DNA from: a virus
IMG/VR virus record: IMGVR_UViG_3300047323_000375
Location: 1-56,363 of that record
Length of the DNA: 56,363 bases
Strand: one strand, 5' to 3'
Shown: positions 8,111-51,394 of the stretch, in pieces
How positions within the stretch are numbered: the stretch's first letter is position 1
Layout: every line of letters starts with the position of its first letter
Position numbers and translations under genes: made by a program
The notes under the pieces: model-generated
What the model saw: only the letters and a program-made list of their open reading frames with translations
Databases searched by the model: none
What the model was told of the DNA's origin: nothing

Positions 8111-9001
8111 ATGACCACGAACAGAAAGGCAATCGAGGCGGCAATCGAAGCCGCCGAGCGCAACGCCTCGCGCAAGATCGGGAAACCAACCGCCGAGGAA
8201 AAGGCACGCAAGGCCGCCGAGCCGCGCGACTGGCCCGAGGGTGACTATCCGACTAAGAAGCCGCGCGCACGCACGAAACCGGCCGCCAAGACGCCCGCGA
8301 AGAAAGCCGCGCCCGCACGCAAGCAACCGGCTAAGAAAACCGCTCAGACGCCCGCAAAATCGCCCGCCAAGGCGGCGCGAGGGAAACCCGCGCCCAAAGG
8401 CAAAGCATCTAGCCGCAAGATAGCCGCTACTCCTACGCCCGCACCTAAGCCGGAACCCAAACCGGAACCCGTTGAAATCATCATGGGCCGCCCGGTGAAG
8501 TACACCGATGAGATCACGCACGCCCTCATCAAGTATTTCGATATCCGGGTGGATCGCGTTGAGAACGTCATGGTGCCGGATAAGGACGGCAAGCTGACCG
8601 AGGAAAAGCAAGTCATCGTCAATGACTTCCCGACCCTCACGCGCTTCGCTCACGAATGGGGCCTCACGCGCCAAACGCTCAAGAACTGGGCCGATGCGCT
8701 CAACGAGGACGGCTCGCGGCGGTATCCAGACTTTTTTTACGCCTACACGCGCGCAAAAGAGGCGCAAGAGTCGCTCATCGTTGAAGGCGGCATGGCGGGC
8801 AAGTACGAATCCCGCTTCGTGGTGTTCGCCTCGAAAAACCTCATCGGCTGGCGCGATCAGGTTGAGCAGACCGTGACGGCGAATGTCACCGCGACGAGCC
8901 GCGAATCACTCGATGCGATCTACGAGGCGGGTATCGAGGAAAGCAACCGGGCGCGCGAGCAGCGCATGGCCGAACGGCGCGAGATGAATGGCGACGAGTA
9001 A
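8111..9001 (+). CDS. terminase small subunit
   Basis: 296 residues, AAGGG eight bases before the ATG. Residues 20-118 are a histone H1-like tail made of K/A/P (TPAKKAAPARKQPAKKTAQ). Residues 122-255 hold the packaging domain: GRPVKYTDEITHALIKYF, then FPTLTRFAHEWGLTRQTLKN with a helix-turn-helix, FFYAYTRAKEAQESLIVEGG and the FASKNLIGWRDQ motif common to phage small terminases. It would recognise the packaging site and recruit the large subunit, whose gene it overlaps by 14 bases. The basic tail is unusually long. Confidence 0.8.
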   Translation: MTTNRKAIEAAIEAAERNASRKIGKPTAEEKARKAAEPRDWPEGDYPTKKPRARTKPAAKTPAKKAAPARKQPAKKTAQTPAKSPAKAARGKPAPKGKASSRKIAATPTPAPKPEPKPEPVEIIMGRPVKYTDEITHALIKYFDIRVDRVENVMVPDKDGKLTEEKQVIVNDFPTLTRFAHEWGLTRQTLKNWADALNEDGSRRYPDFFYAYTRAKEAQESLIVEGGMAGKYESRFVVFASKNLIGWRDQVEQTVTANVTATSRESLDAIYEAGIEESNRAREQRMAERREMNGDE

Positions 9002-10961
9002 GACGGGCGCGCGGCATCTGCCCGACGATCCGCGCTATATCGAATTCGTGCTGCGCTATGCGTTCGATTGCACGCGGTTCGCTATCGAAGTGTGCGGGCT
9101 CAAGGCGCCGACGTGGCAACAGAGGGAGCTATTCGAGTCGGTGAGTGTGCCGGGCTCGCGCACGTCCGTCTCGTCGGGGCACGGCTGTTTCGGGCGCGGA
9201 ACGGGCATCATGCTCGCCGACGGCACGAGCCGGCGCGTAGAGATGATCCGCAAGGGCGACAAGCTGCGCGGTGACGACGGCACCACGCGCACGGTGCAAA
9301 GCCTCGAGCGCGGCATCGAGGCCATGTGGCGCCTCACCTACGAGGACGGCACCGGGCACGACTTCAACGAGTCGCACATTCTCTGTCTGATCGACCGCGC
9401 GGGCATCGCGCATAAGGTGCCGCTCGCGGACTATCTCGCGTGGAGCGAGGACGAGCGCGCGGCGTGGACGGCATACCGGCGCGACGCCGGCGGCGCGTTC
9501 ACGCGGCTCGATATCGTTGAGGTTGAGCCGCTCGGCGAGGATCGTTACTACGGCTTTACGCTCGATGGCAACGGCCTGTTTTGCCTCGCTGATGGCACGG
9601 TCACGAGCAACACCGGCAAAACGTCGGGCTTCGCGATTATCGCCCTGTGGCATTTGCTCTGTTACTACCTCTCGAATACCTTTCTCACCGGCCCGAAAAT
9701 CCGAACGGTGCATGACGGTGTATGGAAAGAATTCGCCGACTTGTCCGCGAAAATCGAGACGGGCGCGCAATCATGGGTGCGTGACTATTTCACCATCGAG
9801 AGCGAGCGCGTATTTGTCAAAGGCTACAAGCTCAACTGGTATGTAGCGCCGAAATCCGCGCCGCGCGGGGCCCCGGAAAACCTCGCCGGTACGCACCGGG
9901 ACTGGCTTCTGTGGCTCGCCGATGAGGCGTCCGGTATCCCTGATGCGAACTTTAAGACCATCTCGGGCTCGCTCACCGATAAGCGCAACCGCATGGCGCT
10001 CGCATCACAGCCAACGCGCTCGAGCGGCTTTTTCTATGACACGCACCATTTGCTCTCGTGGGCTAAGGGCGGCGTGTGGAATAACCTCGTATTCAACTCT
10101 GAGCTATCGCCAATCGTCTCGCACGAGTTTTTGGCGGAAAAGAAAGAGGAATACACCGAAGAAGAATATTCGATCAAAGTCCTCGGGCAATTCCCTGAGA
10201 ACTCATCGAAATACCTGCTCGGGCGCGGCGCCATTGAGGCGACACTCGGGCGCAACGTCCTACTGCCTAACACCCCTTGGGGTTGGATATTGCCGCTAGA
10301 CGTGTCGGGCGGCGGTTGGCGCGATTACTCGGTTCTGCCCGCGCTCAAGGTGCAAGGTATCGGCGAATTCGGGCCCGACGCGCGCCGCGCGCAACTCGTG
10401 CAGGTGCCGCTATGGGACAACAAAACCGACCCGACGGACTTGCACGGCATTTTGATGAAAGAGGCGCTCGAGCGCGGCAACGCGCACGCCATGATCGACG
10501 CCGGCGGCATGGGCCTGATGGTTTGCCGCTCGCTGGACCGCAACGGTTTCAGCGCATACACCAAGGTTCTGTGGGGAAAACAGAACTTCAAGAAAGAGTT
10601 TAAGGACCGGTATCTGAATCAACGTGCGCAGGCCACTTGCGGGCTCTCGCGCGCGGTGCAAGAGGGCCGCTTTGGCGTCGATCCGGGTATCAGCAAGAAG
10701 TTCGTCAACGCGATGATCGAGCAGGGCTCGCGCATTCCGTATCACTACGACGAGCAAGCCCGGCGAGTGATTATGAAGAAAGAGGATATGAAGAAAGAGG
10801 GCATTCCGTCACCGGACATTTGGGACGCGCTCTCATTCGCTTTTCTCGAGGATGCTCACTTCTCGATTGCCGATGAGGAAAACGAGGCATCGAAGGCCGA
10901 CGACATAGAGCAAGCTAGGGCCGAACTTATGGCCGCACTCGGCGAGCATCAACACGCTTAG
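8988..10961 (+). CDS. terminase large subunit precursor with in-frame intein
   Basis: 657 residues as encoded, 515 after removing the intein at residues 67-208. Once spliced, the P-loop reads SSGHGTGKTSGFA. Walker B is LLWLADEASGIPD, and the C-terminal RNase H-like nuclease shows acidic residues in LPLDVSGGGWRD, AMIDAGGMGLMV and SPDIWDALSFAF. This is the ATP-driven motor and headful/site nuclease that packages DNA into the prohead together with the upstream small subunit. Without splicing the ATPase loop is broken, so packaging should depend on intein excision. The stop TAG is the start of a TAGGAAAAC motif. Confidence 0.9.
   Translation: MATSKTGARHLPDDPRYIEFVLRYAFDCTRFAIEVCGLKAPTWQQRELFESVSVPGSRTSVSSGHGCFGRGTGIMLADGTSRRVEMIRKGDKLRGDDGTTRTVQSLERGIEAMWRLTYEDGTGHDFNESHILCLIDRAGIAHKVPLADYLAWSEDERAAWTAYRRDAGGAFTRLDIVEVEPLGEDRYYGFTLDGNGLFCLADGTVTSNTGKTSGFAIIALWHLLCYYLSNTFLTGPKIRTVHDGVWKEFADLSAKIETGAQSWVRDYFTIESERVFVKGYKLNWYVAPKSAPRGAPENLAGTHRDWLLWLADEASGIPDANFKTISGSLTDKRNRMALASQPTRSSGFFYDTHHLLSWAKGGVWNNLVFNSELSPIVSHEFLAEKKEEYTEEEYSIKVLGQFPENSSKYLLGRGAIEATLGRNVLLPNTPWGWILPLDVSGGGWRDYSVLPALKVQGIGEFGPDARRAQLVQVPLWDNKTDPTDLHGILMKEALERGNAHAMIDAGGMGLMVCRSLDRNGFSAYTKVLWGKQNFKKEFKDRYLNQRAQATCGLSRAVQEGRFGVDPGISKKFVNAMIEQGSRIPYHYDEQARRVIMKKEDMKKEGIPSPDIWDALSFAFLEDAHFSIADEENEASKADDIEQARAELMAALGEHQHA
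9186..9611 (+). other. mini-intein inside the terminase Walker A motif
   Basis: 142 residues inserted between Gly and Thr of the P-loop (SGHG/TGKT). Block A begins at the junction Cys (CFGRGTGIMLADGTSRRVEM). Block B is DFNESHILCLI with its conserved His. Blocks F/G are RYYGFTLDGNGLFCLADG followed by TVTSN, with Thr as the +1 extein nucleophile. There is no LAGLIDADG or HNH endonuclease, so it is a minimal splicing element. The residue before the terminal Asn is Ser rather than the usual His, which in other inteins slows or alters Asn cyclisation. Boundaries are set by restoring a perfect Walker A. Confidence 0.9.
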
Positions 10962-15658: not shown

Positions 15659-16198
15659 TCATTTGATGGTTTGCGTCATCGAGAACGCGCGGATCGTGCC
15701 GGGATAGCGAAAGTGCTCAGTCCCGTCGTAAGGGATTCGCGAGTTCCACGCCGCGTGAAGGGCCCGCCGCAAGTCCTCTGCAATCTGAGTCGCCCTGTCC
15801 GGTTCCGGCATCCAGTAGCGCGGCGCGGTGCGCTGCACGCGCCGAACGGATACGACCGCCTGCAAGCGCCTATCACCGCTCGTGGTGAAGTCCTCCCAGT
15901 CCACAGAGAGCGCGAGCGCTGGCGGGCGCTTTCCGAGGCGCGCATTGAGCATTTCCGCCGCACGCTCGGCGGGCGTAGGGTTCGCCATGCGATCAAGGGC
16001 GGCGCGCATTTCCGCGACCGTCGGCATCGGCGTATGCGCCGGGAATAAGTCGCGCTCCTGCTTGGTGAGCGCACCCTGTAGAGCGGCGAGCATCTCCGCT
16101 CGCGCATGTTCCTGCATGTGGCGGCGCGCGGCGGCAAGCTCGCTTTCGTCAACGCCGCCGATGTAGAGAACCGCCTCGCTTTTGAATGCCTTGTCCAT
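15659..16198 (-). CDS. hypothetical phage protein
   Basis: 179 residues, convergent with the early block and isolated between two terminators. The N-terminal half is helical and charged (DKAFKSEAVLYIGGVDESEL, MQEHARAEMLAALQGALTKQ). The C-terminal half contains PALALSVDWEDFTTSGDRRL and a short beta region. The only in-frame start is ATG 16198; it has no clear Shine-Dalgarno and is preceded by a (CAC)n/GAGCAC stretch. No promoter was seen in the 29 bases up to the next terminator, so expression may depend on readthrough. Not recognised. Confidence 0.6.
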   Translation of the reverse strand: MDKAFKSEAVLYIGGVDESELAAARRHMQEHARAEMLAALQGALTKQERDLFPAHTPMPTVAEMRAALDRMANPTPAERAAEMLNARLGKRPPALALSVDWEDFTTSGDRRLQAVVSVRRVQRTAPRYWMPEPDRATQIAEDLRRALHAAWNSRIPYDGTEHFRYPGTIRAFSMTQTIK

Positions 16199-16226: not shown

Positions 16227-16256
16227 AAAAGGCCCGGTTTTTACGCCGGGCCTTTC
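16227..16256 (-). terminator. minus-strand intrinsic terminator of the structured-RNA region
   Basis: 10-bp GC-rich stem (AAAGGCCCGG at 16228-16237, CCGGGCCTTT at 16246-16255) with an 8-base loop. Read leftwards it ends in TTTTCTCT, a usable U-tract; read rightwards the tail is only TTTCC. It therefore best terminates a leftward transcript, the one expected from the promoter at 17203-17230. Confidence 0.75.
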
Positions 16257-16484
16257 CAATGCGGGTGCAGGTGTACAAAGTCTGTCCGCTTGTGCCGGGT
16301 TTCCACCGGACTCCACGGCTCCGAGACCTGCCGCTTACCCCTCAGTTCCGGCCTTTCGGTCGCGGCTTCGGGTGCATTGTTGAGAGTGACCGACGTTCCG
16401 CCGCGCCGCCCGGTCGGGGTGGGGTCCACCGGGTGAGCGCGCATTCCCGGATTCGTCCATAGGCGCTGTAAGCCGCGACGACTT

Positions 16485-16591
16485 CACCCTCACGACTGGC
16501 GACTAGCTCGTAAAGGGAGCCTGTCTCGATCTGGCAGAGGGTTGCGATCCTACTCCGCTCGTGCTCGTCTAAGTCGCCATGCGTGAGGGTG
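16485..16591 (-). repeat. long hairpin, unit 0 of three
   Basis: Outer arms CACCCTCACG (16485-16494) and CGTGAGGGTG (16582-16591) pair perfectly. After a one-base bulge on each side (A16495, T16580) a second helix, TGGCGACT with AGTCGCC and its flanking bases, adds eight pairs. The 67-base interior starts with a small stem GCTC/GAGC, placed like the CGCT/AGCG stem of the other two units. Confidence 0.6.
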
Positions 16592-16849
16592 CAGGACATT
16601 AACGTCTATCCTGCTCCGACGGAAGGCCCGCAAGCGCTCTAGAAACGCCTGTACGGTACAACACCTTCAAACTGAGAGTGACCGGCGCTGAACCCCGGCT
16701 TGTGGACGATAGGCGTGTATGTGTGACGCCTCGTTTTACCCTTAACCCTGTCGGCTAACCATACTCATCTCGCCGACTACACCCGCACCGTATCGCTACA
16801 CCGGGCTTAGTCTCGTTCCACTGATTAGCGCAATCAGCACTCGCGCATT

Positions 16850-16953
16850 CACCCTCACGTCCAAGGCATTCGACGCTCGCATGTGGCAGCGTCCGGAATT
16901 TATCTATGCGGCCGCGCCCACCGACCGCCGCCGAATGCCTTGGCGTGAAAGTG
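16850..16953 (-). repeat. long hairpin, unit 1 of three
   Basis: CCAAGGCATTCG (16861-16872) pairs over 12 bp with CGAATGCCTTGG (16932-16943). T16860 is bulged, and the outer arm then resumes (CACCCTCACG against CGTGAAAGTG, two mismatches). Inside are the stems CGCT/AGCG and GCGG/CCGC. It is separated from unit 2 by ten bases. Confidence 0.65.
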
Positions 16954-16963
16954 CGCTATCTAT

Positions 16964-17094
16964 CCCTCACGTCCAAGGCGTTCAACGCTCGCATATGGCA
17001 GCGTTTCGGTTGTGGTACACGATGTATAAACGTGCATTTCCTTTATGCGGCCCGCGCCCACCGAGCCGCCGTCGAACGCCTTGGCGTGAGGGTG
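16964..17094 (-). repeat. long hairpin, unit 2 of three
   Basis: CCAAGGCGTTC (16973-16983) pairs with GAACGCCTTGG (17074-17084). T16972 is bulged exactly as in unit 1, and the outer arm CCCTCACG/CGTGAGGG is perfect. Relative to unit 1, the A-T pair in the middle of the helix is a G-C pair, a compensatory change. The interior stems CGCT/AGCG and GCGGC/GCCGC are kept, while the connecting loop is longer. Confidence 0.65.
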
Positions 17095-17202
17095 CTTGCA
17101 CGATAGCAGGTTCGATCATTCGCTCGCAACTGTGTGGAGAACCGAGAGGATTCTACCCACGACCTAGCGAGCGGCAAGAAACGAAGCGCAACGGCGCCGT
17201 TG

Positions 17203-17230
17203 AATATCGAGAATAGTTTTCCTATGTCAA
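17203..17230 (-). promoter_or_regulatory. minus-strand TTGACA promoter for the structured RNA
   Basis: Consensus -35 TTGACA (17225-17230, minus strand), 16 bases, then GATATT (17203-17208). The spacer contains the only minus-strand copy of TAGGAAAAC (17216-17224). The predicted start is near 17197, just upstream of the hairpin array. Strength rests mainly on the perfect -35. Confidence 0.5.
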
Positions 17231-17256
17231 CCCGCACCGCCGCTCAGTTGACATAG
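17222..17256. promoter_or_regulatory. GTTGACATAG inverted repeat between divergent units
   Basis: CTATGTCAAC (17222-17231) and GTTGACATAG (17247-17256) are a perfect 10-bp inverted repeat 15 bases apart. The left arm contains the -35 of the leftward promoter, and the right arm offers a TTGACA pointing towards the fibre gene at 17347, without a good -10. A related repeat lies upstream of the second SGNH fibre gene (25983-26006), so this is a plausible binding site for a regulator of both. Confidence 0.55.
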
Positions 17257-19133: not shown

Positions 19134-19372
19134 TTGAATCTCCATTGGTAAGGGCATGGGTTGCAATCGGCATGGCCGGGCCCGCCCTTGTCGCCATAGT
19201 CGTGCGTACCGCAGCGCGTGCAACGATAGACGGCTTGCGAGCATTCAACTGGATATTCGCGCGGGCACGAACGGCCGCCCTCGGATTCCCACGTATGACC
19301 GTGCATCGCGCAGTCGTGCGGCGCCGCGTTGTGCGCGGCCTCGCGGATAAGCTCGGTGAGTAGCGCCGTCAC
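19130..19372 (-). CDS. zinc-binding hypothetical protein
   Basis: 80 residues from a GTG that overlaps the preceding TGA, with GGGAGAG just upstream. Cys/His ligands are spread as HDCAMHGHTWESEGGRSCP, then YRCTRCGTHDYGDKGGPGHA and CNPCPYQW, fitting one or two zinc sites. It could be a small adaptor or inhibitor protein. No family recognised. Confidence 0.6.
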   Translation of the reverse strand: MTALLTELIREAAHNAAPHDCAMHGHTWESEGGRSCPREYPVECSQAVYRCTRCGTHDYGDKGGPGHADCNPCPYQWRFK

Positions 19373-19863
19373 GTTCTCTCCCAATCGACAAAGGGCGTCT
19401 CATACCCGAGCATGAGCGGGTGGAGCGGGGCGCCGCACTTGGCAAAGCCGAATGCTTTGATCGGCCGGCCGCTCGCGCGCATCATGGCCTCAACCACGTC
19501 ATACCGGCCGCGCAGCGTGCTTGGCACCTTCGCGCGCGGGCCCCAACAGGGAACCACTAGATCGGCGTGCCCGATGATATATCGAAGGTGCTCGTCGTTT
19601 TCCGGGCCGATAGGATCAGGCGCGGCCGCAAGCTCGCGCACGTCGGTTGCGCGGAACGCGAACAGGTTGCCGACGACAAACCGTGAGGCGCCGTAGCGCA
19701 TGGTAAAGCCGCGCCACTTGCGCACGGTTGCGTCATCGAGCGTTGCGTCGGCCGTGGACGGATTCACGCCGATATAGGCAACGCAAAGCGGTGCTACGGC
19801 CGTTTCGATGCGGCGCTCGAGCCGATAGCGGTAGGTGCCGCACGCACTCAGGATCGCGCTCAT
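19369..19863 (-). CDS. DUF1643 family protein
   Basis: 164 residues, ATGA-coupled. It follows DUF1643 closely: YRYRLERRIETAVAPLCVAY, then IGVNPSTADATLDDATVRKW, NLFAFRATDVRELAAAPDPI, GPENDEHLRYIIGHADLVVP and CWGPRAKV. The family is common in phages and mobile elements; its biochemical role is not established (a nucleotide- or base-related function has been suggested by context only). Confidence 0.85.
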   Translation of the reverse strand: MSAILSACGTYRYRLERRIETAVAPLCVAYIGVNPSTADATLDDATVRKWRGFTMRYGASRFVVGNLFAFRATDVRELAAAPDPIGPENDEHLRYIIGHADLVVPCWGPRAKVPSTLRGRYDVVEAMMRASGRPIKAFGFAKCGAPLHPLMLGYETPFVDWERT

Positions 19864-46758: not shown

Positions 46759-46872
46759 CTAGAACAGTTGGAATCGGTCGGCGAGCAAGTACGCAATTCC
46801 CGCGATGATGGGCACTGCTAGGCACGCCCATTCGAATGTGGTGACTTTGCGCCGTTCGTCCGTTGCGGCCAT
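46759..46872 (-). CDS. 37-residue membrane mini-protein
   Basis: A strong Shine-Dalgarno (GGGGAG) five bases before the ATG supports translation. TTFEWACLAVPIIAGIAYLL is a single membrane helix, with a short charged head (AATDERRKV) and a tail ending ADRFQLF. It lies upstream of promoter copy 4, so it is expressed separately. Function unknown. Confidence 0.55.
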   Translation of the reverse strand: MAATDERRKVTTFEWACLAVPIIAGIAYLLADRFQLF

Positions 46873-46915
46873 GTTGCTCCCCTTCTATCAAATGAGAAGC
46901 GCCCATATTGAAGCT

Positions 46916-49900
46916 ATGTCGATCAGGAAAATGTGCGCCGACGATCAGACTTGGCACAGTGACAATGGACGCATGGACCCATACGCACATATCGACCAAG
47001 GCGCGCACACCGGCGCATTCGGCCACAACTCGCGGGAGCACCCGACGCTCGCGCAGATTCAGGCCGGCAACTACAAAAAGGGCCGCGCAGTCGTGGCCGG
47101 CATGAAAGTCGTGATCGAGAACCCGCGCGGCTCGCTTCGCGGTTGGACTGCGCCCGACGGCACGCGCGGCGAGAGCCTACAGAAATTCCACTACGGCTAT
47201 TTCGAGGGCGTGCCCGGCGCCGATGGCGACGAACTCGATATGTACGTTGGGCCGTGGCCGGAATCGGATCGCGTTTTCGTAGTCAACCAGTACATCAACG
47301 GCGCGTGGGACGAGCATAAGGTGATGCTCGGCTTTCCCGACCAACGCACCGCCGAAGCCGGCTATATCAGCAACTTTCAAGAGGGTTGGGACGGCCTCGA
47401 AAGCTGCGTTGGCTGTTCGGTTGCGCAATTCAAGTGGTGGATCGCAAACGGCGACACAACCAAGCCTTTCACCGCAGAAAATCTACCTGTTGAGGAAAAG
47501 AAGATGGACAAGGTTCTATGGGACTCGGCGAATAGCCCTGTCGGCACGACGCTCGCTCACGTTCTCTACGCGGTGCGCGCGCACGACGGTAGCGAGGGGC
47601 TCATTTTCGACGCCGTGACCGTGGCCGAAATCCTCGCGGACGCCGACGAGGTGCTCACCTTCGATGCGCTCGTGGTGCCGTTCGCTCGCCTCGAGCAGCG
47701 CATGGCGATTCTGCGCAAGGTGATGGATCGCGCCGTTGAGGGCCTCACGACCGTTGCGATGCAAGTCACCGACCCATTCAAGGCCAAGGGCACCACGCAG
47801 GTAGCGTGCGTGTTCGAACTGTCCGACGGTCAAACGCTGTCCATCTTTTTCCACAACCCCGACGTGACGCCCGCGAAGATCATGCCGGGCGATGACCTCG
47901 TTTCGTGGAAATGGATGCTCAACAAAAAGGACATCACCATCGTGGTTGCGCCCGAGCGCGGCCGTGACCTCGATGTGCGCCTCGTTGCGCGCCGCGTAAT
48001 GGCGCTCGCCGCCAAGAACTCGGCACGCTTCGCGAGCACCAACGCCAAGCGCGCCGCGACGTTGGAAAACATCGCGAAGCTCGAGACGGAATTCAACGAG
48101 AAAACCGTCGTGCTCAACGGCCTGATCCGCGATATCGAGGAAGCCGAGTTCGAACTCGAGCAACGCACCCTCGCGCCGCGCGCGACGCTCGCCGAGCCGC
48201 CGGCGCCTGTCGTGGAGCCCGAGAAAACCGAAGCGCAGGCCGCTATCGACGCGCAAGACAACGACACGCTGGACAAGATTCAGGCGCGTCTCGATGCGCA
48301 GATTGACGCGCTTGACCTCGAGGACTTGCGCCGCCTCGCGAGCTACGATCCGACGTTCGTTAAGAAGGGCGACACCCTGCCCGATTACGACTTGCGCGAC
48401 GAACTCAAGCAAGGGCACCCCGACGACATTCAGGCCGGGCTCAACCTGCTCGCGGCGTACAAAGAAAGCCTGCCCGCGCCGCAACCGGAATTGCCGCTCG
48501 AGGCGCCGGCCGCCGGCGGCAAGCCCGACCTCACCTATCGCCAACTCGATGACCTTTTCACGGCGTTCTATCCCGAGACGCCCGCCGGCGAGCAGGCATG
48601 GAATGAGATGGCCGCGCACACCGACGGCACCGGCAAGGTTCTGAACGGCCAAGTGGACGGCACGATTGCGCAATTGCGCGCCGCCGGCTACACCGTAGAG
48701 CCGGGCGCCGCGCCCGCGCAGAGCATCGATGACGTGCTGGCGGAACTCGACAACGAGCCCGCGCTCGCCGCGCCGGCCGCCGAGCCCGCGCCGGCCGCCG
48801 CCGCACCCTCTATCGATAGCCTGCCCGGCGCCGTGACCGACGATATGCCGTTCTCGGACGTTGAGGACGCCGCGCATTGGCTCGTGATGAACGCGCCGCG
48901 CCCGCTCTACGGTGACACGGTGAACGTCAACGGCCCGATGCTCGAGGGCCGTCACTGGGCCCTGATCGACCTGACGGACTCGATGGCCGCGAGCACCATC
49001 GAGATGAACCGCCAGAACGGCGCCAAGGCCGTGCTCTACGCGACGAGCGACGAGCAACTCGGCATGGCGCTGCAACTCGCCGGCGAATATCAGGCCACAT
49101 ACCTCGAAATGGACGCGCTCGAATTGAGCGAGAGCATCGGCGCCCTGTCCGCGAAGCTCAACGATATGACCTATGGCGAACTGCGCGCGCTCAAGGCGAA
49201 GGGCATTCCGGAGGGCGCGATGTTCAACAAGCCGCGCGTGGCGCCGGAAGAAAAGCCCGCACCGAGCACGAAGTATCTGGAATCGAGCGGCTTTAAGAAC
49301 GTCTCGGGCAACGTATGGGTTTCGACGGTGCAACGCGCGGGCGGCGATTCGATGCACATCAACGTGAACGTGACCGCCGACGGCTATTTCGTGCGCAAGT
49401 CGATCACCTCGCCGGGCATCACCGGTGCGAGCGCCGATATCGGCCAATTCGATAACGAAGTGGACGCGAACGCTGTCGCGCAAGCGGAATTCAGGCAATT
49501 CATCGACAACGCGCCGGCCGCGACGCAATACGCCGGCGCGGACGTGCTCGAGGCGAACGGCTTCAAGCACGCGGCCGATAACGTCTGGACGCGCTCGCAA
49601 GAGGGCATCGGCAGTCGCCTCGCGCTGAGTGCGTTCATTCAGACCGACGGCCAATTCTCGCTGCGCGCGGCCGTCATTACGCCGCTCGATTCTGGCTCGC
49701 TCGAGGACATTGGCACCTACGCGACGCCCGGTGAACTCGTGGACGCGGCGAACGAGGCGATTGAGAAGTTTCTGAGCCCGGCCGCCGCCGAGCCCGAGGC
49801 GAGCGCCGTGGAGCCCGAGGCCGACGATGAGCCGCACAAGTCCGAACTCGTGTTCGATGCGCTCGTGGATGAATTCGGTTGGACGCGCACGGACAATGGT

Positions 49901-51394
49901 TCGATCATGAAAAACGTCGGCGGCGCGGAAACCGGCGGCGAACTGAACCCCGACGGCGACCGCCTCGTATTCGCCGAGTTTGATGACACCTACCGCTATC
50001 TGAGCCTGTATTCCGGGTTCGCGATGGTGTTCGATATCGACACCCGCGACGGCACGCCGCGCGATGTGGCGCTCGCGTTCAATACGCGCGTGATGGAATG
50101 GGCCCGGCCCGCGCCGAAAGCGTCCGAGGCGCCCGCAACGCCCGACGATCCGCTCGAGCACGCCCGCGCGCGCCTCGATGATCCGACGTTCAAGCGCGTC
50201 TCGCGTGACATTCTCGGCTCGCTCGGCACGATCAAGTCGCTCGACGCCGGCGAACTGCGCGGCTATGACCGGGCGCTGTTCGTCTCGAGCATCTCCAACA
50301 AGCTCAAGGTGCAAGCGAAGAAAGATCAGGAACTCACCGGCATGTTGCTCGCGTTGATCGATCACGTTCAAAGCGGCTTCGCCAAGCCCGCAATCACCGC
50401 GCGCAACGCCATTTGGAAGCTCAATCCGAACTGGAGCATGTTCTCGCCGCTGTTCGCGAAGGCCGCCGAGCCCGAGGCGCCGGCCGCGCCTGCCGCAGAA
50501 CCGGCCGCCGAGCCGGTGACGGAACCGGACCCGCCGACGGCAACCACGCCGCACGACAACGATGCGTGGTTGCTCGGGCGAGAGGCTATCGGCGCGCTTG
50601 CCGACACCGACTACGCCGCGATCTACGCCCGCCTGCAGGACGGCAACCAACACGCGGAAGCGCTCGCGCTGCGCGCCGGGCGCATCGGCACCGAGGAACA
50701 GTATCAAGAGGCCCTCGCGATCATGCGCGAGCGCGCCGAGGCCGGCTCGCTGACGCCGGAACTGTCCGCACGCTCGGCGGCCCTCTCCGCTGCGCTCTCG
50801 GGCGAAACGCCGGCCGCCGAACCGGCGCCCGCCGCAGAACCCGAAACGCCGGCCGCGCCGGCACCAACCGAACCGCTCAACATGGAAAAGTACATTCTCG
50901 TGGCCGCCAATAGCATCGCGAAGCTGCGCCGCATCGACGTGTGGCGCGTGCTCGATGCGCTCGGCGATGGCAACGCCGACGGCGTGACGCGCGCCGCGCT
51001 CGCGAGCTACATCGCGCAGCAACGGCCCGACCTCGCCGCCGAGGTTGCGAGCGTGATGGCAGAGGAATGGCCGGGCGAGTGGGAAGCGCCGCAGGCATCG
51101 ACGGGCGCCGAGCCCGCCGCCGCTGTCTCGCAACCACTGCCCGAGGGCATCGTTGATGTGCCGCCGCCGGCACCGGCCGCGCCCGCCGCCGGCGAGAATC
51201 CCGCGCGCGACGCGGACCTCGCTTTCCTCGCTGATGTAGCAGAGGGCCGCGCCGACGTATGGGCCGATGAAACGACCGACCGCATGGAAGCGATGATCGA
51301 GAAGTATCCCGGTGATGCGACGGTTGAGGCCGCATGGCGCGCGGCCGTGGAAGCGTTTTCCGAAGCAATGGCGAAGGCCGCAACGGCCGTCTAA
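46916..51394 (+). CDS. pyrophosphatase-like + DarA-like polyvalent protein
   Basis: About 1,492 residues; the start is uncertain (ATG 46892, 46916, 46931 or 46973; none has an ideal ribosome site). Residues about 40-185 match the phage inorganic-pyrophosphatase-like domain of polyvalent proteins: PTLAQIQAGNYKKGRAVVAG, FHYGYFEGVPGADGDELDMY, DEHKVMLGFPDQRTAEAGYI. Residues about 197-370 resemble the DarA N-terminal domain: QTLSIFFHNPDVTPAKIMPG, LVSWKWMLNKKDITIVVAPE. A coiled coil follows, then Pro/Glu/Ala-rich linkers and three related modules (ESSGFKNVSGNVW, EANGFKHAADNVW, DEFGWTRTDNG). Dar proteins are injected with phage DNA and counter restriction; that role here is inferred. An in-frame ATG at 47504 with GAGGA upstream may start a separate DarA-like product. 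Confidence 0.65.
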   Translation: MSIRKMCADDQTWHSDNGRMDPYAHIDQGAHTGAFGHNSREHPTLAQIQAGNYKKGRAVVAGMKVVIENPRGSLRGWTAPDGTRGESLQKFHYGYFEGVPGADGDELDMYVGPWPESDRVFVVNQYINGAWDEHKVMLGFPDQRTAEAGYISNFQEGWDGLESCVGCSVAQFKWWIANGDTTKPFTAENLPVEEKKMDKVLWDSANSPVGTTLAHVLYAVRAHDGSEGLIFDAVTVAEILADADEVLTFDALVVPFARLEQRMAILRKVMDRAVEGLTTVAMQVTDPFKAKGTTQVACVFELSDGQTLSIFFHNPDVTPAKIMPGDDLVSWKWMLNKKDITIVVAPERGRDLDVRLVARRVMALAAKNSARFASTNAKRAATLENIAKLETEFNEKTVVLNGLIRDIEEAEFELEQRTLAPRATLAEPPAPVVEPEKTEAQAAIDAQDNDTLDKIQARLDAQIDALDLEDLRRLASYDPTFVKKGDTLPDYDLRDELKQGHPDDIQAGLNLLAAYKESLPAPQPELPLEAPAAGGKPDLTYRQLDDLFTAFYPETPAGEQAWNEMAAHTDGTGKVLNGQVDGTIAQLRAAGYTVEPGAAPAQSIDDVLAELDNEPALAAPAAEPAPAAAAPSIDSLPGAVTDDMPFSDVEDAAHWLVMNAPRPLYGDTVNVNGPMLEGRHWALIDLTDSMAASTIEMNRQNGAKAVLYATSDEQLGMALQLAGEYQATYLEMDALELSESIGALSAKLNDMTYGELRALKAKGIPEGAMFNKPRVAPEEKPAPSTKYLESSGFKNVSGNVWVSTVQRAGGDSMHINVNVTADGYFVRKSITSPGITGASADIGQFDNEVDANAVAQAEFRQFIDNAPAATQYAGADVLEANGFKHAADNVWTRSQEGIGSRLALSAFIQTDGQFSLRAAVITPLDSGSLEDIGTYATPGELVDAANEAIEKFLSPAAAEPEASAVEPEADDEPHKSELVFDALVDEFGWTRTDNGSIMKNVGGAETGGELNPDGDRLVFAEFDDTYRYLSLYSGFAMVFDIDTRDGTPRDVALAFNTRVMEWARPAPKASEAPATPDDPLEHARARLDDPTFKRVSRDILGSLGTIKSLDAGELRGYDRALFVSSISNKLKVQAKKDQELTGMLLALIDHVQSGFAKPAITARNAIWKLNPNWSMFSPLFAKAAEPEAPAAPAAEPAAEPVTEPDPPTATTPHDNDAWLLGREAIGALADTDYAAIYARLQDGNQHAEALALRAGRIGTEEQYQEALAIMRERAEAGSLTPELSARSAALSAALSGETPAAEPAPAAEPETPAAPAPTEPLNMEKYILVAANSIAKLRRIDVWRVLDALGDGNADGVTRAALASYIAQQRPDLAAEVASVMAEEWPGEWEAPQASTGAEPAAAVSQPLPEGIVDVPPPAPAAPAAGENPARDADLAFLADVAEGRADVWADETTDRMEAMIEKYPGDATVEAAWRAAVEAFSEAMAKAATAV

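Follow-up and report, generated by a model that had tools for sequence, protein, structure and literature searches.

The minus strand of the window (the whole 56,363-nucleotide stretch of viral DNA analyzed here) contains no credible gene over ~870 bases at ~16227-17094 and is there a chain of folded RNA modules, one of which, element A, very probably belongs to a conserved class of RNAs with a cloverleaf fold. We consider it likely that this identity and fold hold for the window RNA and that it acts as an RNA. The features of the locus, with several borders read by eye, are as follows.

16227-17094, minus strand: whole modular RNA region, made up of U1, U2, element A, unit 0, element B and a terminator-like hairpin
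17203-17230, minus strand: promoter proposed earlier, TTGACA-16-GATATT, its -35 within an inverted repeat
17100-17129, minus strand: alternative promoter-like pair TTGCGA-18-TATCGT just before U1 (weak; by eye and by analogy with the relatives L238 and L239)
16964-17094, minus strand: module U1, a long hairpin of the U2 kind (recurrence and covariation)
16850-16953, minus strand: module U2, a long hairpin with a conserved UCGGUGGGCGCGG loop and the hairpin ACGCU-GCCACAUGCG-AGCGU
16673-16857, minus strand: element A, a cloverleaf with acceptor UGAGGGUGA/UCACUCUCA, D-like arm, P1 with a pseudoknotted core, and T-like arm
16822-16827, minus strand: conserved UAAUCA directly before P1 (alignment), kept in the circularly permuted members too
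16702-16821, minus strand: P1-P3-P4-P2-P1', the conserved core within element A (130.9 bits with model R1)
16786-16788, minus strand: pseudoknot strand in the insert, partner of the P2 loop at 16723-16725
16732-16738, minus strand: near-invariant single strand UAAAACG (alignment)
16711-16731, minus strand: P2 hairpin AGGCG-loop-CGCCU, with a near-invariant stem and a loop that varies with the insert
16723-16725, minus strand: pseudoknot strand in the P2 loop (covariation)
16485-16591, minus strand: unit 0 module, CACCCUCACG-CAUGGCGACU ... AGUCGCCA-GU-CGUGAGGGUG
16381-16492, minus strand: element B, a second closed multi-branch unit with the acceptor strands UGAGGGUGA/UCACUCUCA of element A and another interior
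16228-16255, minus strand: terminator-like hairpin with a UUUU tail (sequence)

The long open reading frames inside 16227-17094 look spurious because the GC3 of that at 16881-17216 is atypical (0.54, compared with 0.59-0.84 elsewhere) and a Pfam search with it returned no match; nor was a conserved protein seen in the homologous regions. The minus strand of a 1004-nt segment folds at -449.8 kcal/mol compared with -393.1 kcal/mol for dinucleotide shuffles (z -6.5), the plus strand of the same segment gives z -7.8 against such shuffles, and a neighboring coding stretch gives z -2.1 on its minus strand. The noncoding stretch with hairpins and shared arms described in an earlier note on this DNA is present in the sequence, and the compensatory A-T to G-C change that the note reported between units 1 and 2 is real, although unit 2 has CACUUUCACG as its 5' arm and not the supposedly common CACCCUCACG. 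A TTGACA box does lie at 17230 on the minus strand, but its role as a -35 element is uncertain because it is part of a perfect inverted repeat (17222-17256, 9-base arms CTATGTCAA...TTGACATAG, two divergent TTGACA boxes), which leaves the promoter doubtful; the repeat is possibly an operator or a pair of divergent promoters. By weak analogy with L238 and L239, in which the first module comes directly after a -10-like box, the alternative pair TTGCGA-18-TATCGT (17129-17100, read by eye and the weaker of the two) would start the RNA at the first module, ~17094. The hairpin at 16228-16255, formerly called an intrinsic terminator, is strong, but it is followed only by UUUU and is absent from the list produced by the terminator scan.

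Similarity of the fetched loci to the window in blastn stops at ~16673 and ~16857, and these borders are the ends of the cloverleaf, which is also the minimum free energy (MFE) structure of element A. From 5' to 3' the element consists of a 9-bp acceptor (UGAGGGUGA/UCACUCUCA) enclosing a D-like hairpin, UAAUCA, the stem P1 and a T-like hairpin. In each member, the 'anticodon' stem P1 leads to a pseudoknotted three-way junction (P1-P3-P2), and the class shares the motif UAAAACG-AGGCG-loop-CGCCU-AU. The window element carries all of the parts that define insert type a (the R1 core, P1, the P2 stem AGGCG/CGCCU and the pseudoknot) and those of the frame (the cloverleaf as MFE structure, the acceptor and, by the group test below, kissing D- and T-loops). 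Model R1, which was built from type a members and has the window among its seed sequences, scored 130.9 bits (E 3e-34) on it.

Covariation in homologues had been named beforehand as the decisive test, and it is strong. Among the 43 members of the window's insert type, 33 named pairs were formed in 93.6% of cells compared with 77.0% after shuffling, with a covariation score of 0.479 compared with 0.181 (neither reached in 500 shuffles); when pair partners were slid as a control, the score fell to 0.11 or less and the signal was lost. Both sides had changed in 20 of the 33 pairs. The pseudoknot (16786-16788/16723-16725) was paired in 100% of cells, one of its pairs having changed on both sides in 13 sequences, and a structure-free search of column pairs returned P1, P4, P2, P3 and the pseudoknot as the strongest covariation. 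The acceptor stem averaged 7.4 bp in true flanks, with 71% reaching at least 7, compared with 3.7 bp and 5% when flanks were swapped; the longest stems among members extend to 23 bp. The D-like loop is complementary to the T-like loop and covaries with it (group test, p < 5e-5; for example GGCUGA/UCAGC, GGCGA/UCGCU and GAUGA/UCAUC). D- and T-loops look canonical in members from Gram-positive phages, and in Gram-negative members a kissing loop takes the place of the canonical elbow. Since members with a simple closing stem exist (L127, L132 and L153), the core of the class is P1 and its load.

A blastn search against phages first returned two distant matches, Klebsiella phi1_146050 and Aeromonas 62AhydR11PP, both to the same 150-base segment. 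A search with their common motif, TAAAACGAGGCGT..ACGCCTAT, yielded at least 119 viral DNA stretches, and one with an independent pattern drawn from the insert yielded 52. In all, 91 non-redundant members, taken from viral contigs, prophages and cultured phages, passed the P1 check, 86 in the usual order and five circularly permuted. The other insert types are also matched significantly by R1 (best E 3e-10), and most of the permuted members give weak matches. At circularly permuted loci (L055, L122, L088, L032, L005 and L222), P1 is closed by a short hairpin (e.g., ACGCGACUACACGCGGUAG) and a tRNA or tRNA-like unit lies upstream; in L055, upstream CUUGUAAG pairs with downstream CUUACAAG.

Hosts of the members include at least Proteobacteria, Firmicutes and Bacteroidota, and relatives of phage lambda in E. 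coli are among the carriers. Most of 51 pattern matches in bacterial genomes were due to chance and ~15 passed the P1 check; named bacterial genomes with members are those of Pandoraea, Pseudomonas, Enterococcus, Shouchella and Rhodanobacter, where the elements presumably sit in prophages. The region of the element of phage CUS-3 was matched in 650 of 5,426 complete E. coli genomes (nearly whole in 116), with no annotation beneath it among the matches listed; the class has been hidden in plain sight. A survey of the host family gave one positive among 300 genomes, that of the query itself; the elements are phage-borne and rare per genome. A search of plasmids gave no match. Because viral contigs contain no relative of the gene adjoining the window RNA (15659-16198), a comparison of the full locus among close relatives is not possible.

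Rfam 15, searched at gathering and permissive thresholds with the window and its relatives, returned only tRNAs and chance matches. Together with the covariation in homologues, this bears out the earlier reading that the minus strand encodes a structured noncoding RNA outside the Rfam families. The unit differs from that reading: in place of a single giant RNA with a fixed architecture of the GOLLD or ROOL kind, there is a chain of recurrent modules, among which the cloverleaf of roughly 185 nt with its pseudoknotted insert is the widely conserved one. GOLLD (RF02032) gave no match at E≤10 in the window stretch and ROOL (RF03087) none there either, and neither matched any of 40 records; that search also missed its control genomes, on which both models were silent, so the negative result rests on cmscan as well. 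No tmRNA was identified in the window by ARAGORN or in the window and 14 loci by Rfam, and the window gave neither an ARAGORN tRNA call nor a match to RF00005, although nested tRNAs of other members are recognized. No Rfam model of group I or II introns or of known ribozymes matched the window or its relatives. The T4 RNAs rnaC and rnaD were rejected as relatives, there being no UAAAACG/AGGCG motif and no R1 match in the T4 stretch. We found no description of the class in the open-access literature on tRNA-like phage RNAs, boundary sequences and RtcB decoys; it may be described elsewhere.

Among known systems, the class is nearest to GOLLD and ROOL in setting and to tmRNA in layout, and it is a member of neither. 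GOLLD and ROOL are found in phages near tRNA islands, sometimes with a tRNA inside (in GOLLD within the variable part), and GOLLD rises during lysis (PMC12286853). Our elements are likewise structured, noncoding, carried by phages and prophages and near tRNA islands, but their module spans ~120-240 nt as opposed to 400-900 nt, with a cloverleaf frame and another core. This common setting, and the interchangeability of acceptor strands between modules, would suit an oligomeric scaffold or cage in which interchangeable strands and kissing loops assemble particles; however, homology to GOLLD or ROOL is lacking and the kissing loops fit intramolecular pairing with tRNA-elbow geometry, making such a particle improbable. 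As in tmRNA, the anticodon arm of a tRNA-like domain is replaced by a large insertion with a pseudoknot, whereas the D-like arm has a stem and neither a tag reading frame nor a CCA end is seen. The elements resemble tRNAs in their acceptor, D and T arms, in the canonical D- and T-loops of Gram-positive members and, as in phage tRNA arrays, in sharing the strand of neighboring tRNAs; unlike tRNAs, they lack an anticodon arm of normal size, mostly lack CCA and, in Gram-negative members, form the elbow by a kissing loop. A further likeness is to T4 rnaC (species 1) and rnaD (species 2), stable non-tRNA RNAs inside a phage tRNA cluster. The class adds a new architecture to the few large structured RNAs of phages, namely a cloverleaf with a kissing elbow and a nested pseudoknot or nested tRNA.

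In most members the P2 loop finds a partner in the insert. For type a this pairing is GRYG with YRYY in 100% of cells, and type c uses CUGG/CCAG, CGGG/CCCG, CCGG/CCGG and AUCAG/CUGAU. In one locus (L034) and two close relatives (L035 and L103), the flanks are 91-95% identical and the P2 stem is identical while the inserts cannot be aligned, and the P2 loop is altered to match each insert. These comparisons show the insert to be a cassette exchanged together with its matching P2 loop. The exchange between near-identical flanks, and the annotation of part of the element as boundary sequence bsq3 in CUS-3, would also be expected of a recombination cassette that works as DNA (a 'boundary sequence') and has only an incidental RNA structure, but compensatory changes in the RNA helices, including the pseudoknot and the loop-loop contact, require selection on RNA, and this explanation is very unlikely. 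Swapping of cassettes between near-identical relatives is the behavior of conflict genes, and its occurrence here in a tRNA-shaped frame suggests an arms race or a role in specificity.

In Enterococcus phage phiFL2A, the flanks of another member (L046) surround a small empty frame without P1 and the insert. The absence of P1 as well argues against simple intron removal and, more broadly, against a self-processing ribozyme or intron-like element with ends rejoined by the RNA ligase RtcB. The near-invariant three-way-junction core with its pseudoknot, the existence of circularly permuted members and the RtcB gene adjoining the element in four loci would all fit such an element, but with no Rfam ribozyme or group I/II intron match we regard it as quite unlikely.

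About 9-10 members contain a tRNA recognizable by ARAGORN inside the element. The P2 loop is complementary to the anticodon loop of the nested tRNA above chance (p = 0.006, n = 22), in a modest test with permissive tRNA calls; in L118, for example, CAGAA faces UUCUG. On the minus strand of L052 (~8500-8690), a nested tRNA-like unit has a long insertion at the anticodon position, giving a tRNA within a tRNA-like unit within a cloverleaf.

In the lambdoid phages CUS-3, JEP4 and HK629, the element is flanked by Q, the gene of the late antiterminator, and by the holin gene; ArpU and terminase flank its frame in phiFL2A. Upstream neighbors include Q and Alt-like regulators; the nearest upstream genes of 66 loci match phrog_248 (transcriptional activator) in eight cases and phrog_36 (transcriptional regulator) in another eight. 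Downstream lie terminase, holin, head genes or RtcB, the last directly downstream on the same strand in L036, L087, L106 and L133 (four loci, two of them related). Of 89 loci, 35 have a tRNA inside the element or no more than 1 kb away, in every case on the strand of the element. The cloverleaf frame of HK629 is separated from the putative pR' by a gene for an HNH endonuclease, and its P1 and insert are unlike those of CUS-3.

The lambda late leader (tR' to S) has a frame closed by GUUGUGCUG/CAGCACAAC at the same place as the CUS-3 element, with a different interior. R1 also gave a weak match to the lambda pR' 6S leader (L212:882-965; 18.6 bits, E 0.03 over the set searched), in which AAAAGAGGCGG-loop-CCGCCUAG has a loop complementary to GGUAGUGAG just upstream, resembling a pseudoknot; being near noise, this relation to the class is unproven and a lead only.

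The put RNAs of phage HK022 are antiterminators that work in cis. A leader similar in kind, acting in cis as an antiterminator or stabilizer within the late mRNA and so sustaining RNA polymerase or the transcript, could account for the Q-holin and ArpU-terminase positions and for the late activators often found upstream. However, the window element is its own unit with a terminator-like end, L132 has a terminator-like U-run after its closing stem, and other members lie in tRNA arrays with variable neighbors, so that we think a cis-acting leader unlikely to be the function of the class.

The class probably has a general role in infection. As a working model, the window region would produce a stand-alone leftward noncoding RNA, a chain of tRNA-shaped and hairpin modules. 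The acceptor, D-like and T-like arms of the class form a tRNA-like frame whose elbow is a kissing loop that covaries or else a canonical pair of D- and T-loops, and the loop of the near-invariant P2 hairpin locks onto the insert as a pseudoknot. The modules may be made in quantity late in infection and released as free RNA, either with closure by the acceptor stem or a terminator-like P1 or through excision in the manner of tRNAs; as mimics of tRNA they may then act in trans. Their constant parts, the frame and the core, might bind a host factor common to many bacteria (an RNA-processing enzyme, an RNA-targeting nuclease or the ribosome), with the cassette setting specificity, most simply as a bait or competitor by which phage translation or tRNAs are shielded. 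That the RNA is a free tRNA mimic offering exchangeable bait to host RNA-handling or defense factors is a tentative reading and a rather doubtful one: UAAAACG, AUGAGUAUGG and GGUGUAGCGAUACG are near-invariant and fit a catalytic or ligand-binding core equally well, and the place at the start of the late operon fits a cis-acting leader equally well. Long acceptor stems are poor RNase P substrates, and these stems and the absence of CCA ends from most members speak against the model. With rather less than even confidence, we can envisage a general phage RNA system of tRNA-shaped cassette presenters, placed at the start of the late program in phages of many phyla of hosts and acting in trans as mimics in phage-host conflict; held at the same level, its cassettes would be pseudoknot domains or whole tRNAs, and some phages would chain modules with switching closing strands. 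The class is testable in ordinary lambdoid phages.

Compared with the cloverleaf, the long hairpins recur among fewer phages, which are related. Modules of the U1/U2 type are present in five further contigs (in L238, twice in L239 and in part in L235-L237), always with the conserved hairpin ACGCU-GCCAUAUGCG-AGCGU, and their helices covary among the five whole copies that could be aligned. Unit 0 has a homologous module in L235 and a similar one in L238, and the chains of L238 and L239 are similar to the whole window region. The modules of these phages follow the order C-rich arm, hairpin (or tRNA-like unit), G-rich arm, cloverleaf, C-rich arm. In each of the seven cases that were written out by eye, the G-rich arm has complementarity to either C-rich arm, over 9-12 bp to the upstream one and 7-9 bp to the downstream one, with sequences that differ among phages. 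The shared G-rich strands of the window are 16850-16859 and 16485-16494. This double complementarity suggests that the closing strand has two mutually exclusive closures, which possibly switch during RNA synthesis; for unit 2 and element A of the window, the MFE structure prefers the upstream pairing. In L238 (560-760, plus strand), a tRNA-like unit with a long insertion, for which ARAGORN makes no call, replaces the hairpin module in the alternating chain.

Elsewhere in the window, the terminase large subunit gene (8988-10961, plus strand) is split by an intein-like Hint domain (CFGRGTGI...VTSNTGKT; Pfam Hom_end_hint, E 9e-13), and a DUF1643 protein is encoded next to the tail region (19369-19863, minus strand). 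A 1529-aa protein (46805-51394, plus strand) has DarA_N and InPase domains, which suggests a DarA/DarB-like antirestriction protein.
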